From positions 1-33,620 of the IMG/VR virus record IMGVR_UViG_3300044715_000425: a DNA stretch of 33,620 nt, one strand, 5' to 3'. Shown in pieces: positions 1,384-10,165 of this stretch. This stretch comes from a virus. Position 1 is the first letter of the stretch; the number at the start of each line of letters is the position of its first letter. The notes below the pieces were generated by a model. It had not been told where the DNA came from. It ran no database searches and worked only from the letters and a program-made list of their open reading frames with translations. A program made the translations under genes and the position numbers.

Positions 1384-1404
1384 GTATTACCCCTCTCTCA
1401 AATC

Positions 1405-1429
1405 AACAGCGGATCAACGATCCGCGTTT
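1405..1429 (-). repeat. Palindromic intergenic element (array family, distal copy)
   Basis: Between the PAS gene and the fibre gene the minus strand reads AAACGCGGA, seven bases, TCCGCTGTT. This is a clean copy of the inverted-repeat element that punctuates the 5.1-8.6 kb small-gene array. Here the inner stem GCGGATC/GATCCGC is perfect around a GTT loop. Confidence 0.7.
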
Positions 1430-1432
1430 GTT

Positions 1433-5072: not shown

Positions 5073-5101
5073 TGAGAATCGGAGTTCCGGACCTCTGCTG
5101 A
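5073..5101 (-). repeat. Palindromic array element, orphan copy
   Basis: The minus strand reads TCAGCAGAGGT, seven bases, TCCGATTCTCA. This is a full-length copy of the array element, with no gene between it and the previous copy at 5122-5150. It lies just upstream of the lysis promoter. Confidence 0.6.
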
Positions 5102-5121
5102 TTTGCGTCTCACGCCTTTAA

Positions 5122-5150
5122 AAAGTATCGCACAGTTATTCCGCTGCTCA
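5122..5150 (-). repeat. Palindromic array element after 53-residue gene
   Basis: It starts at the TGA of the upstream gene: TGAGCAGCGGA, seven bases, then a degenerate second arm TGCGATACTT. Confidence 0.55.
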
Positions 5151-5309
5151 AAACCCCGCCAGCATCAAATCGCGGACGGTATCCCAAAACAAAAACGTGG
5201 ACTTCGTTCCGTACTGCGAATAGAGCCATGCGGCCCACTCGCAATCGTGACCTGTCACCTGCTCCACGACGTATTTTTCATTCCAGCGAACGTGCATTTC
5301 TTCACTCAC
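5148..5309 (-). CDS. Small hypothetical protein (53 aa)
   Basis: GTG-initiated frame of 53 codons; an in-frame ATG at 5297 is an alternative start. The protein is rich in Trp and Tyr and ends DTVRDLMLAGF. Its last ten codons match residues 46-55 of the lipoprotein-like gene at 2670-3419, at 27 of 33 bases when the stop codon is included, so it is very likely a real gene and a paralogue of that N-terminal module. It follows the DNA methyltransferase with about 30 bases between. Function unknown. Confidence 0.6.
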   Translation of the reverse strand: MSEEMHVRWNEKYVVEQVTGHDCEWAAWLYSQYGTKSTFLFWDTVRDLMLAGF

Positions 5310-5313
5310 AAAA

Positions 5314-5342
5314 AGACGACCGGAGTACCAGACCGCTGCTCA
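5314..5342 (-). repeat. Palindromic array element after methyltransferase
   Basis: It begins at the methyltransferase TGA: TGAGCAGCGGT, seven bases, TCCGGTCGTCT. The first arm is nearly perfect and the second partly conserved. Confidence 0.6.
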
Positions 5343-6641
5343 TTGCAGGGCCAACGAACGCTGCTTGAACCGATCAGCAGCCAGTTTCAAATACTCCGGA
5401 TTCAACTCGCATCCAACGAAGTGACACCCGTTTTTCTTCGCGACTGCTGCCGTCGTCCCTGATCCCGTGAACGGATCGAGAACCACACAGGGAACCTGAG
5501 TTCCCGCTTCGCAGTTGCAACCAGCCTCCCAACCGATCGTCTTCGTTGTCGTGCAATGCCGTTGCGGATCTCGATTGCCGACGATAGTTCCGGAATGCCG
5601 CTCGTATGGTGAATCAGGATCATCTGACGCCCTGCCGATTTTCGTGTCATTGCCTGGACGTGTCGCCTTCCTGTCTTTCTCGATCTGACGACGCCAGGGC
5701 GTTCCACACTTCGAGCAGCAGCCACTTTCCGATGTTCCGGCCAGAATGCAGGGTTCGATCAGATCAGGCGGGAAGACGGCAAAGTGAGCGCCGCCGTATG
5801 GCTTCGTTGTCACGGTCCAAACTGACCGCTTGTTTCTCTTTTCCCACGGAACGTCGGCAACCTTCATCAATCCGGCTTTCGTTCGATGTTCTTCCGATTC
5901 GCTGGATTCGTACTCGTCAACGTATTTGTGCGACTTGTTTCCAGCCGTTCGAGGCTTTCCCTTTGGCCGCTTCGATTCGTCTCTCCCGTCCATGTCCCAC
6001 GCCCCCTGCGATCCGTAGGGACGCCGCTCATCGTTCGTAATGCTGCTCTCCTGAATCGCCTGATTATCAAAGAAATACCGTTCAGACTTCGTCAGGAGAA
6101 ACATGTACTCGTGTGATTTCGTGCAACGGTCCGTGACGCTCTCAGGCATAGGGTTCGGTTTGTGCCAGATAATGTCCTGCCGAAGATACCAGCCGTCTTC
6201 CTGAAGCGCGAAGGCGACCCGCCAGGGGATTCCAATCAGGTCTTTTGGCTTCAATGCTTTTACTCGAAGCCCGAACCCAGTTTCCAATTGTGGCCGCTCT
6301 GTCGTCTGTGCTCCTCGAGATAGCGACGATGACGGTCCTGCCCCGCCGTTGTAGGCATTGTACGAATCACCGAGATTCAGCCAGCACACGCCATCGTCGC
6401 GTAGAACCCGCTTGACCTCACGGAAGACTGCCACCATCTGAGCGACGAATTCAACCGGAGTCGCCTCGAGTCCGATCTGGCCATCACAACCGTAGTCACG
6501 CAGCCCGAAGTATGGCGGGGAAGTCACGCAGCAATGCACGCTCTGCTCCGGCAGTGTCTTCAGGATTTCGCGGCAGTCACCGAGATAGATTTTGACTCCG
6601 TCTCTGTTGAATGCTGGTTTTTGTGGGTCTGACAGAATCAC
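5340..6641 (-). CDS. DNA adenine/cytosine-N4 methyltransferase
   Basis: A 433-residue amino-methyltransferase. TSPPY (about 40-44) is the catalytic S/N-P-P-Y motif, and DPFTGSGTT (about 389-397) near the C-terminus is the SAM-binding FxGxG-type motif followed by GCELNPEYL. Catalytic motif before SAM motif is the beta-type order used by N4-cytosine and N6-adenine enzymes. A central insert and the CCSKCG/CNCEAG cysteines fit a DNA-contact or zinc region. No restriction partner is adjacent, so it looks like an orphan phage enzyme for protection or regulation. The GTG at 6641 was chosen because GGAG sits five bases upstream; ATG at 6671 is possible. Confidence 0.9.
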   Translation of the reverse strand: MILSDPQKPAFNRDGVKIYLGDCREILKTLPEQSVHCCVTSPPYFGLRDYGCDGQIGLEATPVEFVAQMVAVFREVKRVLRDDGVCWLNLGDSYNAYNGGAGPSSSLSRGAQTTERPQLETGFGLRVKALKPKDLIGIPWRVAFALQEDGWYLRQDIIWHKPNPMPESVTDRCTKSHEYMFLLTKSERYFFDNQAIQESSITNDERRPYGSQGAWDMDGRDESKRPKGKPRTAGNKSHKYVDEYESSESEEHRTKAGLMKVADVPWEKRNKRSVWTVTTKPYGGAHFAVFPPDLIEPCILAGTSESGCCSKCGTPWRRQIEKDRKATRPGNDTKIGRASDDPDSPYERHSGTIVGNRDPQRHCTTTKTIGWEAGCNCEAGTQVPCVVLDPFTGSGTTAAVAKKNGCHFVGCELNPEYLKLAADRFKQRSLALQ

Positions 6642-6670
6642 GATAACTCCAATGTTTTCAACGAATCCCA

Positions 6671-6698
6671 TGAGCAGAGGAACCACGAACCGCGTTTA
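6671..6698 (-). repeat. Palindromic array element before methyltransferase
   Basis: It starts at the TAA of the 65-residue gene: TAAACGCGGT, seven bases, TCCTCTGCTCA. Both arms are recognisable. Confidence 0.65.
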
Positions 6699-6893
6699 CT
6701 GATCGCGCAATCTTAGATGGTATTCAAGATACTCAATTCTTTCTGCCGCATCCTTCATGGTCTTAACCACGATCACAGGCACGGACTTCATCAAATCCCC
6801 CCGGTCTCTCAGCCTTTCGGTTAGGCTGAGTCCTTGGTATCTCGGAAGATCCGCAACGATTTGATTATGTCTGTTTTCATTCGTCGATACCAC
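6696..6893 (-). CDS. Small hypothetical protein
   Basis: 65 residues, polar and helical in the second half (MKDAAERIEYLEYHLRLRD). The GTG start has a strong GGAGG six bases upstream, good evidence that it is translated. No signal, membrane segment or known motif. It is one unit of the repeat-punctuated array. Confidence 0.65.
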   Translation of the reverse strand: MVSTNENRHNQIVADLPRYQGLSLTERLRDRGDLMKSVPVIVVKTMKDAAERIEYLEYHLRLRDQ

Positions 6894-6904
6894 AATGTAC
6901 CTCC

Positions 6905-6931
6905 AACAGCGGAACGCTCATCCGATAGTCA
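6905..6931 (-). repeat. Palindromic array element
   Basis: It starts at the TGA of the 71-residue gene: TGACTATCGGA, seven bases, TCCGCTGTT. The second arm is intact. The Shine-Dalgarno of the next gene follows directly. Confidence 0.6.
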
Positions 6932-7144
6932 TAGCGGCTTGAACTCCACCGCTGGTAAATCATCCGAACCAGACGGAACATGATCGACGTAATCAACTTC
7001 GATGCAATCTTCCTCCCAGTCCTTACCGACCGCCGACATCGCCACCGCCAGCCACTCCGAATTCATCCGAAGATGACCTTGCGGAACGTTCCGAATTATA
7101 ACTTGGCAGGTCTCCTGCTTTCGCAGAGTGATAATTGCGTCCAC
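6929..7144 (-). CDS. Small hypothetical protein
   Basis: 71 residues, acidic in the C-terminal half (DWEEDCIEVDYVDHVPSGSDD). GTG start with GAGGGGTGA about six bases upstream. Strand-rich N-terminus (CQVIIRNVPQG). Not recognised. Its stop forms the first arm of an array element. Confidence 0.6.
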   Translation of the reverse strand: MDAIITLRKQETCQVIIRNVPQGHLRMNSEWLAVAMSAVGKDWEEDCIEVDYVDHVPSGSDDLPAVEFKPL

Positions 7145-7179
7145 GTTTCACCCCTCGTGAGAAAACTCAATTCGAGTCA

Positions 7180-7206
7180 CAATCTGATCAGTGTGCTCCG
7201 CGTTTA
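7180..7206 (-). repeat. Palindromic array element, half copy
   Basis: It begins at the TAA of the 63-residue gene with a perfect first arm, TAAACGCGGA. After seven bases the second arm is degenerate (GATCAGATTG). Confidence 0.5.
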
Positions 7207-7395
7207 CTCATACCCCAAAAACACTTCGTTGTCCGGATCTGCGTGGTAGCTCGCTGCTGTATTCAGCCCTACATTGTCGTAAAACGCCCACGCACAATCA
7301 CGACGGATGAGCATGTCCCATGATTTGTCTGGTCTAATTTTGAAGCGAAACACGCTCAATCGTGACTTCGAAAACACTATGAAATCTTGCGGCAT
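7204..7395 (-). CDS. Small hypothetical protein
   Basis: 63 residues with a beta-rich, aromatic composition (FRFKIRPDKSWDML, CAWAFYDN). ATG start but only a weak Shine-Dalgarno. The main support is that it fits the regular stop-element-gene pattern of this block. No recognised family. Confidence 0.5.
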   Translation of the reverse strand: MPQDFIVFSKSRLSVFRFKIRPDKSWDMLIRRDCAWAFYDNVGLNTAASYHADPDNEVFLGYE

Positions 7396-7411
7396 AGTCT
7401 TAACTTTCAGG

Positions 7412-7437
7412 AACAGCGGAGTGCAGAACCTCGTTTA
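7412..7437 (-). repeat. Palindromic array element
   Basis: It starts at the TAA of the 70-residue gene: TAAACGAGGT, seven bases, TCCGCTGTT. Both arms are clear. Confidence 0.65.
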
Positions 7438-7647
7438 CTTTCCACCGTCGACAATTTCCATAATTCGCTTCGACCATGTCCGGCACTGATCATGTGACGC
7501 AAGCAAAACACGAGTGATCTCGCGGCACGCCTTTGCAGATTTCGGCGCTGGCATGTCCCAATCCCCAATGCAATGCGGTGGCATGTTTTGACATAGCACC
7601 ATTTCGCTTGCCAGTTTCATCAGCTTTGAACGCTCTTCTTCTGTCAT
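7435..7647 (-). CDS. Small hypothetical protein
   Basis: 70 residues, helical, starting MTEEERSKLMKLASEM, with three cysteines and a central PPHCIGDWDMPAP loop. The ATG at 7647 is preferred over 7692 because the upstream residues look non-coding and would run towards the tRNA-like element. The Shine-Dalgarno is weak (GGTGG). Not recognised. Confidence 0.55.
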   Translation of the reverse strand: MTEEERSKLMKLASEMVLCQNMPPHCIGDWDMPAPKSAKACREITRVLLASHDQCRTWSKRIMEIVDGGK

Positions 7648-7675
7648 TGCACCACCATTTTGCACCACGGAAACG

Positions 7676-7704
7676 CCCCGCCAAACATTCACAAACGCTG
7701 TTTA
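7676..7704 (-). repeat. Array-like element after tRNA-like gene
   Basis: Directly after the discriminator base of the tRNA-like gene the minus strand reads TAAACAGCGTT, close to the first arm of the array element (TGAGCAGCGGA / TAAACGCGGA). The second arm is not recognisable. Confidence 0.35.
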
Positions 7705-7774
7705 GGACTCATGATGGAATCGAACCACCGTCATCCGGCTTTTCGCCAGCCCTCTGCCATTGAGGTAATGAGTC
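7705..7774 (-). tRNA. tRNA-like gene, possibly degenerate
   Basis: The minus strand folds into a cloverleaf. The acceptor GACTCAT/ATGAGTC is a perfect seven pairs. The D-arm CCTC-AATGGCA-GAGG carries the usual GG. The T-arm GGTGG-TTCGATT-CCATC has the normal loop. Discriminator C, and no encoded CCA (TAA follows). The anticodon arm is abnormal: the best fold is CTGG-CGAAAAG-CCGG with only four pairs, and there is no U before the anticodon (AAA in that register). It may be a decaying tRNA, a suppressor-like or mimic tRNA, or an integration-related remnant. It occupies one unit of the array, between two small protein genes. Confidence 0.55.
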
Positions 7775-7802
7775 ACGATCTAACATCGACATCCGCTGCT
7801 CA
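7774..7802 (-). repeat. Palindromic array element, half copy before tRNA-like gene
   Basis: It starts at the TGA of the 84-residue gene with a perfect first arm, TGAGCAGCGGA. The second arm position reads GTTAGATCGT and runs into the tRNA-like acceptor stem. Confidence 0.5.
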
Positions 7803-8054
7803 CTTCCAATCAAACCCCAATTCTCGAACGGTAAGCCGGACATCGTTTGCGTCCGGCCTGATCCTTAGACCGCAAACAGACGCCGAAATACTGGCGTGAA
7901 TCTCTGTCGCACCATTCAGCCCGCTTGGATCATGTGAAACAATAACAGCCAGTCTTCGATCGCCGTGTTCGTGCAATCTCAACTCAATCGGCTTGCTGCC
8001 TCTTGCCGTCAATTGCTGCTGTATCGGAAGCGGAATCGATGTTGTCGTCCACAT
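7800..8054 (-). CDS. Small hypothetical protein
   Basis: 84 residues, strand-rich (PIELRLHEHGDRRLAVIVSH, then DVRLTVRELGFDW). ATG start with GGAG nine bases upstream, in the same TTGGAGTT context seen before the methyltransferase start. No membrane segment or recognised family. Confidence 0.6.
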   Translation of the reverse strand: MWTTTSIPLPIQQQLTARGSKPIELRLHEHGDRRLAVIVSHDPSGLNGATEIHASISASVCGLRIRPDANDVRLTVRELGFDWK

Positions 8055-8080
8055 TTCAACAACTCCAATGTTTTTGCGCC

Positions 8081-8105
8081 TAGCGGATGCAATTACCTCT
8101 GCTCA
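8081..8105 (-). repeat. Palindromic array element
   Basis: It starts at the TGA of the 140-residue gene: TGAGCAGAGGT, seven bases, TCCGCTA. Confidence 0.6.
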
Positions 8106-8525
8106 AAACGACCCGACATCCGTAGCCCAATCCGCCGCAACATCCAGCTCGCGTCGAATACCCTCCAGGCTCACCCACAGATCATGCTCAGTCTTGCAGA
8201 TCCCGCCGTCAGCCATTCCCGCCTGCACGATGGCTTCCAGTTTCTTTTCTGCCTGCTGCACGGCATTCAGCAAATGTGGGGCACACGCGATCAACACCAC
8301 GTTCCGCCACCGATCGCCGTCCTCGCCATCGCGGATAATATTGTTGTCGCCGTACTCATCCGGCCCGCATGGAATGCAGTCGATCTCGCATACTGACACA
8401 ACCATGTGCGGACTACCTGCGATCGGGATATGAATCACCGCCGTCGCCTCGTCAGCCTCCGGGTGATTCCTGTCGATCCTGCATTCCCACGACATCATAC
8501 CGTTTTCCAATAACCTGCTTTTCAT
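8103..8525 (-). CDS. Hypothetical phage protein
   Basis: 140 residues from the ATG at 8525. The first half contains MSWECRIDRNHPEADEATAV and an acidic loop. The helix APHLLNAVQQAEKKLEAIVQ resembles the APDLL-A-E-AL motif of many small phage proteins of unknown function. The Shine-Dalgarno is weak (AAGGG). First unit of the array, immediately downstream of the recombinase gene. Confidence 0.65.
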   Translation of the reverse strand: MKSRLLENGMMSWECRIDRNHPEADEATAVIHIPIAGSPHMVVSVCEIDCIPCGPDEYGDNNIIRDGEDGDRWRNVVLIACAPHLLNAVQQAEKKLEAIVQAGMADGGICKTEHDLWVSLEGIRRELDVAADWATDVGSF

Positions 8526-8545
8526 AACTTTACCCTTTGTTTTTG

Positions 8546-8574
8546 TGAGCAGCGGATGTTCCACACCGATCCTA
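8546..8574 (-). repeat. Palindromic array element after recombinase
   Basis: It starts at the recombinase TAG: TAGGATCGGTG, seven bases, TCCGCTGCTCA. The second arm is the exact reverse complement of the perfect first arm seen elsewhere (TGAGCAGCGGA). Confidence 0.65.
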
Positions 8575-9798
8575 AAGCGACCACACCGGCAGAGTTTCAA
8601 TCTTCGCGACGATGTCTCTCAGGATCTCTTCACTCTGCAAGTACGATTCAGCGGTCATCTTTGCCACACCTTCCTCTGACACTGCATGGTGAAGCATGTA
8701 GCTCGATGCCGCGCGGCTCACATGCTTCGCCCACAGTGCTGACGATCCCTTCCTGAAGCTGGCCACATTCCTCTGGCCGAGACTCAACCGGATGATCGGC
8801 TTTCCCTCAATGCGTCTTGCGTCATCCGACAGGCCGGCACGCTCGAGCAGTTTCAAAAACTCCTCCGAGTAGGTCCGCGAGTTGTTCGCCATCGGAAAAA
8901 CTCGTTCCGGATCCAGCCCGCGGAACTGCTCAATCAGATCCCTTATTTTGGCCGACAGCGGAACCAACACGTCTGACGGCCGCTCAGCCGCTTCATCTTT
9001 TTTCGCCGTCTTGTGTACCAGATACCACGCCCAGCCGGCTGCATTGTGCAGGTCTTCCAGCACTGGGCATTGGCTAGATGTGATCACGCCCGACCAAAGC
9101 AGCCCCCTCTTCTCGGCCGATCGTGCCGCAAACCAATCCTGTGACCGAAACCCGTAAACGTAGTGAGCCAGCAGGCTTGTTTGCCAGAACACGGACGGCT
9201 TCACGCTCCCCAGTCGCGGCCATTTGCAGCCGTCCACAACGGACAGCATCGCCTGAAGTTCAGCCACCGTGACAGGAACGGCCTTGACTCTTCTTTGTTC
9301 TTCAGTCCGCGGCCTCAGCAGATTGATCGTTGATTTACTAACCGTCTCCGGCTTCTGCTTCAGCATTCCAGCCCGCACACAAGCCCCGGCCAACTTGCCG
9401 ACCGAGGACAAGGCTTTGCTGGCCATCGCCGATGAATTCCCTTTCGGCTGCGCCCGCAAAACCTCAGCGTAGGTTCTTAGAATCTTTGGCTGCTCAAGCA
9501 AGCTCAAAGATCTGCCGGCCACAACTCGGTGCTGCGTGCGTCCCCAGGCTTCGAACTTGTCGAGTGCGGACCTATTGTCTCTGATCGTCTTGATTGACAC
9601 CCGTTTTTCCTTGTCACTAGCTGAAAGCAGCTCGTCGTACAGATCCACCAAACTCCGGGACTCGATCACTTCAGGCTTTGCCGCTTCAATCACACTGCTC
9701 TGAGGTTCCGGAAACACCCGCAGAGGAATCTGGCCCACACAACACGCATCGAACGTAAACTGAAAATCACTGAGAACTGCGGACATTGCATAACTCAC
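8572..9798 (-). CDS. Divergent tyrosine recombinase / integrase
   Basis: 408 residues. N-terminal core-binding region about 45-160 (SLVDLYDELL, SIKTIRDNRSALDKFEAWGR). Catalytic region: YGFRSQDW gives Arg I at 218; VHKTAKK gives the beta-hairpin Lys at 263; SLGQRNVASF gives Arg II at 343; LHHAVSEEGV supplies His 370/371; AESYL gives the likely nucleophile Tyr386. The first His of the usual HxxR box is replaced by Leu340. It probably cuts and joins DNA at att sites for integration or excision. GTG at 9798 has AGGAA upstream; ATG at 9786 is an alternative. It is encoded inside the early operon on the same strand as everything else. Confidence 0.8.
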   Translation of the reverse strand: MSYAMSAVLSDFQFTFDACCVGQIPLRVFPEPQSSVIEAAKPEVIESRSLVDLYDELLSASDKEKRVSIKTIRDNRSALDKFEAWGRTQHRVVAGRSLSLLEQPKILRTYAEVLRAQPKGNSSAMASKALSSVGKLAGACVRAGMLKQKPETVSKSTINLLRPRTEEQRRVKAVPVTVAELQAMLSVVDGCKWPRLGSVKPSVFWQTSLLAHYVYGFRSQDWFAARSAEKRGLLWSGVITSSQCPVLEDLHNAAGWAWYLVHKTAKKDEAAERPSDVLVPLSAKIRDLIEQFRGLDPERVFPMANNSRTYSEEFLKLLERAGLSDDARRIEGKPIIRLSLGQRNVASFRKGSSALWAKHVSRAASSYMLHHAVSEEGVAKMTAESYLQSEEILRDIVAKIETLPVWSL

Positions 9799-9859: not shown

Positions 9860-10165
9860 TCAACTGACCTTGATATTGAACGCCGCCGCTACTCGGTCAA
9901 CTGTGCCCTTCGACGGCTTGTTTGGATCCGCCTGAGTGACCTGTTTGGTTTTCTTCTGCATTTCAACCTGGCATTTCGCGACGACTTTTCCGCAGTCTGG
10001 AAACTGATCCGTCGAGAGTGCTATTTCCAAAATCGCACGGTTCACAACCTCTGGCGGAAAGATGCTCAGCGTTGCCAACCACGTCTCGAGCTGATGCGTG
10101 GTGAACTGTGCTTGATTTTTAAGTGAGCAAAGGCGTGTCAGAGCCTCTCCAATCTTCGGACGCAT
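9860..10165 (-). CDS. Hypothetical replication-associated protein
   Basis: 101 residues from ATG 10165. The core WLATLSIFPPEVVNRAIL and QFPDCGKVVAKCQ resembles small phage replication or helicase-loader-like proteins found after initiator genes, but I cannot name a family. An earlier ATG at 10264 has GGGGAG at about 11 bases but would overlap the initiator gene by about 145 bases. The chosen start overlaps it by 47. Second gene of the replication pair and directly upstream of the recombinase. Confidence 0.6.
   Translation of the reverse strand: MRPKIGEALTRLCSLKNQAQFTTHQLETWLATLSIFPPEVVNRAILEIALSTDQFPDCGKVVAKCQVEMQKKTKQVTQADPNKPSKGTVDRVAAAFNIKVS

Follow-up and report, generated by a model that had tools for sequence, protein, structure and literature searches.

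Spacer-Addressed Sites Bound Variable Gene Cassettes in Environmental Phages: A Probable Cassette-Exchange Locus

Introduction

Why should one short palindromic element recur behind nearly every gene in a row of small phage genes that follows a tyrosine recombinase gene, and do the genes between its copies move? This question is raised by the IMG/VR record IMGVR_UViG_3300044715_000425, the whole of which (33,620 bp, hereafter the window) was analyzed. The window encodes a tailed phage (portal PF05136, capsid PF25209) whose portal shares less than 60% identity with every one of 65 matched phage records. An earlier note, made from the letters alone, had taken the row to be either a phage gene-cassette array or a set of repressor or RNA-hairpin sites. 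The cassette part of that interpretation is strongly supported and the repressor or hairpin part is not, and the key feature of the element, an ordered central 7-mer, had been overlooked. We argue here that the array is probably a cassette-exchange locus, in which the elements are tyrosine-recombinase core sites and cassettes are swapped between matching overlaps, as in the pdif modules of Acinetobacter.

Sites and Their Address Code

The element is a dyad-symmetric site of 29–30 bp, TGAACAGCGGA-N7/8-TCCGCTGTTCA, with a stop codon in or at its left arm and a leader and start codon 3′ of its right arm. All ten array copies named in the earlier note, together with its distal copy, were located on the minus strand, and its statement that the element stands 3′ of nearly every stop in the array is borne out. 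The gap, described there as exactly seven bases, is 7 bp in most copies and reads as 8 bp in two (GTGGAACA and TGTCGATG); the right arms of the copies at 7802, 7206, and 5150 are poor. The recombinase gene had been called divergent from the array, which is incorrect, as it is co-directional and its stop codon lies inside the left arm of the first site. The copy at 5073 does lack a gene, the interval 5150–5101 being an empty slot of 23 bp, and the unit noted as tRNA-like is indeed called so by ARAGORN, with an odd anticodon (aaa).

An arms-only matrix (two 11-bp arms, spacer ignored) was trained on these loci, those of the window among them; with it, scores of at least 18 are reached by 9 of the 10 window sites that were scored. 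First-order Markov sequence gave 9 matches at this threshold in 2.85 Mb (both strands, gaps of 6–8) and none at 22 or above. When the right-arm matrix is reverse-complemented, its consensus becomes that of the left arm, TGAACAGCGGA, and the two matrices correlate at 0.92, compared with a maximum of 0.78 among 2000 column-permuted controls.

Further array contigs came from four DNA scans with site patterns, whose results overlap. Arrays are 1 of the 4 contigs matched by the first pattern and 3 of the 7 matched by another general pattern; the ATTCCGT site matched 10 contigs (5 arrays) and the AATTGCA site 28 (25 arrays). We separated arrays from other matches ourselves, using printed sequence contexts and the site catalogue; on printed context only, the pattern matches L017–L019, L026–L028, L032, L036, L038–L040, L053, L061, and L063 were not taken as arrays. 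Catalogued by spacer, 289 sites (239 unique) were found in 35 phage contigs, namely 32 with longer stretches fetched, the window, and two small contigs (L033 and L046). Contigs were oriented by their addresses, and near-duplicates (G027, G030, G034, and G035) were dropped where stated.

The central 7-mers of these sites form some 22 recurrent "addresses" in one fixed order, and within an address the arms are more variable. Because each class is set up by its spacer, finding like spacers inside it would be circular, and the non-circular evidence comes from sites selected on their arms only. Among 7-bp-gap sites scoring at least 16 (near-duplicates dropped), 177 distinct 29-mers contain merely 40 distinct central 7-mers. 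Nineteen recurrent 7-mers account for 153 of these sites, and 5 of the other 21 are one change away from a recurrent one. The corresponding numbers of distinct 7-mers are 27 (left) and 41 (right) for the inner arms and 49 and 81 for the outer arms. That spacers recur more than arms is notable because the sites were selected on good arms and not on the spacer. The spacer AATTGCA, present in 25 contigs, occurs in 19 distinct sites with 11 left arms and 10 right arms.

The order, numbered from 0 in Table 1, runs GTGGAACA, AATTGCA, ACTTGTA, ATTCCGT, TGTCGATG, GTTGGTG-type, ATGTTGG, CTTGTAG, TCTGCAC, GCACACT, TGAGCGT, ATCGTGT, TCGTGGT, CTGGTAC, GTGACGCT, GTACAGC, ATAACTG, xACCAT, xCGGAA, CAGCACG, xCGGAAC, TCGTTGA, and ACTGGAC. 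Each contig uses a subset of it. Across the 35 contigs only 6 of 254 adjacent pairs do not increase; the order was derived from the same contigs, so that what is tested is whether a single order fits nearly all of them. We read two of the six as circular permutation (G029 and G002), two as weak false matches (G012 and G016), and the remaining ones as repeats of one class (class 2 in G016 and class 17 in G004). Exact repetition of a spacer within a contig is found for 3 of 316 contig-spacer types, all in G016 (L102/L103), where ACTTGTA, ACTGGAC, and TCGTTGA each occur twice; the intervals between these repeats could be excised or duplicated. Addresses 21 and/or 22 are inverted relative to the array in G036, G016, G034, G006, G004, and G037, and in G036 and G037 most large open reading frames (ORFs) of the module carrying the inverted addresses also lie on the other strand, as if flipped.

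Exchange of Cassettes at the Sites

The genes found between the same addresses differ among phages. One gene end (CGGGTCGTTTT plus the stop) precedes AATTGCA in nine loci, and the sequences after it differ. Compared among relatives, as the earlier note had proposed, homology boundaries fall at the element: with 27 arrays and 92 alignments, 196 of 272 scored alignment ends (each counted on both partners) are no more than 25 bp away from a site centre, where random positions would give 8%. One could suppose that these breakpoints are merely gene ends, which we reject on the basis of 49 array ORF ends with no site within 60 bp; these receive 4 alignment ends where 6.2 are expected, corresponding to 0.08 per site-less ORF end as opposed to 0.86 per site. 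A gene-cassette array is thus strongly supported, the gene content between given sites varying among relatives and homology ending at those sites.

At the finest scale, 31 junctions at shared spacers are sharp, with near-identical sequence on one side and unrelated sequence on the other, and identity fails 0–14 bp from the spacer (once 19 bp); the pairs were picked at catalogued sites and are not independent. Inverted arms around a 7–8 bp spacer that is identical between partners are what a tyrosine-recombinase core site (overlap of 6–8 bp) would show. A comparison of the window with G015 illustrates the pattern. The two share 99.8% identity across a 500-bp stretch that starts at the edge of the address-0 spacer and ends shortly beyond address 1; upstream of address 0, where the recombinase stands opposite another replication module, they are unlike. 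No alignment is found between address 1 and address 4 of the window, the cassette before address 8 is 88% identical though its left addresses differ (4 vs. 3), and the cassettes 8-10, 10-12, 12-13, and 13-16 are 99.6–100% identical.

With address 0 left out, each arm goes with the flank on its own side. Left and right arm identities are then 0.87 and 0.72 in 60 pairs that share the upstream flank only, 0.65 and 0.79 in 69 pairs that share the downstream flank only, and 0.72 and 0.64 in 1139 pairs that share neither. Twenty upstream flanks join at least two downstream flanks and 20 downstream flanks join at least two upstream ones; a four-gamete test per address gave 1 independent cycle in 249 sites, which falls short of clean proof. 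Of 166 pairs of homologous cassettes (near-duplicates included), 84 keep both addresses, 29 the left only, and 14 the right only. At the protein level (near-duplicates dropped) the left address is kept in 56 of 95 pairs and the right in 59 of 95.

The Candidate Enzyme

The recombinase beside the array of the window is likely the enzyme. It matches the integrase family phrog_1 (E = 3.8e-5), and residues R218, K263, R349, H371, and Y386 are invariant in 7 sequences (alignment A4), the position of the HxxR histidine being A346; the assignment to a catalytic R-K-H/x-R-H-Y set is our reading of the motif as we know it. By sequence it has no match in the PDB and none to IntI, and Foldseek, run on a poor model, returned a weak match to the integron integrase 2a3v (E 0.62). 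Relatives were found in IMG/VR, 10 by direct search and 3 more at about 45% identity; none was found in the GenBank phage or PLSDB plasmid collections, and none of 51 candidates in GTDB genome contigs is one. All 11 assessable recombinase contigs carry sites (three more, L013, L015, and L016, break off within the gene and are left out of the catalogue), and a wider recombinase alignment returns the same 11.

Two distant recombinase genes themselves contain a site at corresponding codons, scoring 27.4 in G034 and 22.4 in G037 (a 10-bp perfect inverted repeat). In 0.95 Mb these are the only matches of at least 22 outside the arrays and the known address classes. A strong site lies near codon 83 inside the recombinase gene at 9878–11095 of L024 and that at 9878–11095 of L025. 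Such a site could be a phage attachment site within the integrase gene, or could serve autoregulation; archaeal fuselloviruses carry their attachment site inside the integrase gene.

Of the 35 contigs, PF00589 is found in 3, the PF00239 resolvase in none and phrog_1 in 4, the last scan also missing the window's own gene so that absence there means little; thus no common substitute enzyme is seen. Ordinary PF00589 integrases stand elsewhere in G001 and G004 (a second recombinase in both) and in G019 (which has no family recombinase).

Proposed Mechanism and Alternatives

From what is observed, namely the sites, their addresses and order, the variable cassettes and the breakpoints at sites, we infer the chemistry, the overlap rule, the enzyme, and exchange on coinfection as follows. 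Each site would consist of two inverted 11-bp predicted recombinase-binding arms around an overlap of 7 (sometimes 8) bp, and the overlap would act as the address, since strand exchange would need matching overlaps. When two phages coinfect a cell, crossing over at an address that both carry, and then at another such address, would swap the segment between the two sites, a natural form of recombinase-mediated cassette exchange through cointegrate formation and resolution. The enzyme would be the tyrosine recombinase family encoded beside or upstream of the array, acting in trans where it is absent. Because addresses differ within a genome, the array would be protected from excising its own genes; the fixed order would keep every swap in register; and with the stop in or at the left arm and the leader and start after the right arm, each swap would yield a whole gene.

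Several results weigh against this proposal. The window recombinase has no Pfam match at an E-value of 0.1, and none to PF00589. Its structural model is poor (pLDDT 60), and the best Foldseek matches, to Cre and lambda Int, are weak (best E 0.019), which is too little to claim a fold. No strong internal site with a 7-bp gap is present in the 8 other recombinase genes tested, where L008 has an 18.6 match with a 6-bp gap and the rest reach at most 12.6. Twenty-four of the 35 array contigs, eight of them 35–44 kb long, show no family recombinase, though all may be fragments. When address 0 is included and other cut-offs are used, the arm identities of upstream-only pairs become 0.84 and 0.81 and the left-right contrast is gone. 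Finally, among the 166 pairs of homologous cassettes, 39 have no address in common and 43 have just one, and these 82 pairs mean that not every move follows from a strict overlap rule. Among the matches listed, relocated cassettes are homologous from the leader AAAACATTGG to the stop and not in the spacer, so that a second route, or address replacement, exists.

Some of these same observations would suit other explanations. If the sites were short conserved linkers at which phage or host homologous recombination (e.g., through a Sak4-type annealing protein) swaps modules with no site-specific recombinase, then the missing recombinases and the breaks at the leader would be natural, and one array phage (G020) does encode a Sak4-like annealing protein. 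We consider this improbable, since within an address the spacers recur exactly while the arms vary, since one inverted arm consensus holds across addresses, which homologous recombination neither needs nor tolerates well, and since the sharp junctions break so close to the spacer that very little shared sequence is left. It is also conceivable that cassettes are exchanged as proposed but by a different enzyme, either a pair of Xer type from the host or a recombinase so divergent that the searches missed it. The contigs without a family recombinase favor this, and the PF00239 and PF00589 scans returned no common substitute. Against it, the arms are symmetric unlike those of XerC/XerD sites, the gap is 7 or 8 rather than 6 bp, and every assessable recombinase contig carries sites, two of them within the recombinase gene itself; on balance another enzyme appears unlikely, if less so than linkers.

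Least probable is that the sites are regulatory hairpins, terminators, or operators, with module borders coinciding because genes travel with their regulation. The sites do overlap stop codons, their consensus is palindromic, and phage stoperators are a known kind of element. Yet the arms are no more complementary within a site (0.545) than between shuffled partners (0.569 over all sites, 0.538 within addresses), and 10 of the 11 window sites fold as RNA no better than shuffles (z from −0.9 to 1.5). An RNA hairpin or terminator is therefore rejected, and with it the hairpin alternative of the earlier note. A symmetric consensus with no covariation within sites fits two protein copies on two half-sites and not a selected stem, and a stem or an operator would leave the ordered, exactly conserved central 7-mers unexplained. 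The distal site at 1403–1431 is the only window site that folds well as RNA (z −3.4).

Beyond single swaps, a plausible but tentative extension of the exchange proposal is that several phage lineages, differing in portal and capsid families and in replication modules, share the ordered set of roughly 22 orthogonal addresses as a plug standard, with a dedicated recombinase that rebuilds the variable region and perhaps swaps modules, in register; swapped replication or head-tail modules may be bounded by addresses 0, 20, 21, and 22. The array is common to different phage types, G012 having portal PF04860 and capsid PF05065 and nevertheless a 0-1 cassette 92% identical to that of the window. In GTDB genome contigs the address-1 site has 8 matches, none with a second known address in the fetched pieces (up to 8 kb), and one of the 8 is in a Planctomycetaceae metagenome-assembled genome that has no recombinase match.

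Relation to Known Systems

As described in PMC13141974 and PMC11705084, pdif modules are genes flanked by tyrosine-recombinase sites of 28 bp, each made up of two arms around a central spacer, recombination is seen between spacers that are identical or differ at one position, and replacement of a single module through cointegrate formation and resolution has been proposed. The phage arrays resemble them in having modules bounded by two-arm sites with a central spacer and in replacement between identical spacers, as at the 31 sharp junctions and between the window and G015, though both addresses are kept in no more than 84 of the 166 homologous cassette pairs. They differ in that pdif modules, as those accounts present them, lie on plasmids, use host XerC/XerD on two distinct arms with a 6-bp spacer, alternate in orientation, and are shuffled in order, whereas here we find phages, symmetric arms (TGAACAGCGGA on both sides), spacers of 7–8 bp, array sites that point one way, a fixed order, and a phage-coded candidate enzyme.

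Integrons, including phage-borne ones, are known, with methyltransferases among their cargo according to PMC9892861. In both, the cassettes are small, usually hold a single ORF, point the same way, and end in a recombination site (a putative one here); unlike integrons, the arrays have sites of 29–30 bp and a fixed instead of shuffled order, and of the 11 window sites 10 lack a strand that folds. Identity with attC is rejected, the core pair RYYYAAC...GTTRRRY occurring in 0 of 289 sites (and also in 0 of 289 random windows), so that the earlier note was right to leave an integron unclaimed.

Among phage elements, the PeSL of T4-type phages combine an early promoter with a stem-loop and are proposed to work through homologous recombination. 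The sites described here resemble them in lying between genes and in marking where small phage genes are exchanged, but have no stem and carry an ordered spacer code. The stoperators and start-associated sequences of mycobacteriophages are similar in that short repeats occur many times between genes; they are linked to repressors or to starts, whereas here stop-linked breakpoints have distinct ordered centres. Titles and abstract beginnings of open-licence papers contained no phage array of such kind.

Phage mosaicism is usually attributed to illegitimate or homologous recombination followed by selection. With breakpoints at dedicated, addressed intergenic sites, a share of it would be programmed. 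The system would also provide one recombinase family with some 22 apparently orthogonal natural overlaps, which would be of use in the ordered assembly of DNA, and its reservoir of small cassettes (methyltransferases, a relative of a Thoeris inhibitor, and many unknowns) is a place to look for anti-defence genes.

Features of the Window and Cassette Cargo

TABLE 1. Array features of the window, with the evidence for each; site addresses are numbered in the order given in the text.
Feature	Position	Strand	Evidence
Tyrosine recombinase, 408 aa	8572..9798	-	phrog_1 match; relatives; invariant residues
Site, address 0, spacer GTGGAACA	8546..8575	-	Arm matrix; breakpoint at spacer edge vs. G015, G024
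Cassette 0-1, 140-aa ORF, function unassigned	8103..8525	-	Same family at 0-1 in 9 contigs (near-duplicates dropped); 100% identical to G015 over 443 bp
Site, address 1, spacer AATTGCA	8077..8105	-	Pattern scan and arm matrix
Cassette 1-4, 84-aa ORF	7800..8054	-	ORF call
Site, address 4, spacer TGTCGATG	7773..7802	-	Spacer also in G004, G017, G024, G028, G029, G036
tRNA-like gene (Phe, anticodon aaa)	7705..7774	-	ARAGORN
85-aa ORF of cassette 4-8	7435..7692	-	ORF call
Site, address 8, spacer TCTGCAC	7410..7438	-	Arm matrix
63-aa ORF	7204..7395	-	ORF call
Degenerate site, address 9, spacer GCACACT; left arm only, right arm degenerate, below threshold	7179..7207	-	Same spacer in threshold-passing sites of G004, G019, G029, G036, G037
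71-aa ORF	6929..7144	-	ORF call
Site, address 10, spacer TGAGCGT	6903..6931	-	Arm matrix
Cassette 10-12, 65-aa ORF	6696..6893	-	ORF call
Site, address 12, spacer TCGTGGT	6671..6699	-	Arm matrix
Cassette 12-13, DNA methyltransferase	5340..6641	-	PF01555, E = 3.2e-43; homologous cassette at 1-2 in G024
Site, address 13, spacer CTGGTAC	5314..5342	-	Arm matrix
Cassette 13-16, 53-aa ORF	5148..5309	-	ORF call
Site, address 16, spacer ATAACTG	5122..5150	-	Arm matrix
Site, address 20, spacer CCGGAAC; empty slot before	5073..5101	-	Arm matrix
Distal site, address 21, spacer TCGTTGA	1403..1431	-	Breakpoint 14 bp past spacer vs. G017

The 226 intervals between sites have a median length of 286 bp; 169 of the 210 scannable ones hold a single ORF, and 14 are shorter than 30 bp. 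Their 250 ORFs fall into 175 families, 41 of which occur in at least two contigs (near-duplicates included). A Pfam scan of 133 representatives, taken from the 135 families having a member of at least 70 aa, matched 30 families. Among the matches listed (25 of the 30), DNA methyltransferases predominate (4 and 2 members), together with one Tad4 (Thoeris inhibitor), an RNA ligase, an acetyltransferase, and others. In PADLOC, among the matches listed (25 of 137 families), all are methyltransferases except one, mads_2. The Tad4 match, an inhibitor of Thoeris defence, is also seen for an ORF of G012 (L100/L101), which we take to be the same ORF as the cassette representative matching Tad4 with the same E-value. 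From the methyltransferases and this one Tad4-like gene, our guess is that the selective use of the cassettes lies in anti-defence and host-range genes.

Cassettes related to the tRNA-like gene of the window occur at L138:11910-11979 (anticodon aga), L080:15069-15138 (aga), and L102:8348-8417 (ata); these share a cloverleaf with a drifting anticodon, and may represent decoys or fragments instead of functional tRNAs. In L008, paralogous genes (SQxIxRDVYRVVYDKDGKP in our reading) occupy two different slots of one phage, at L008:11270 and L008:12488.

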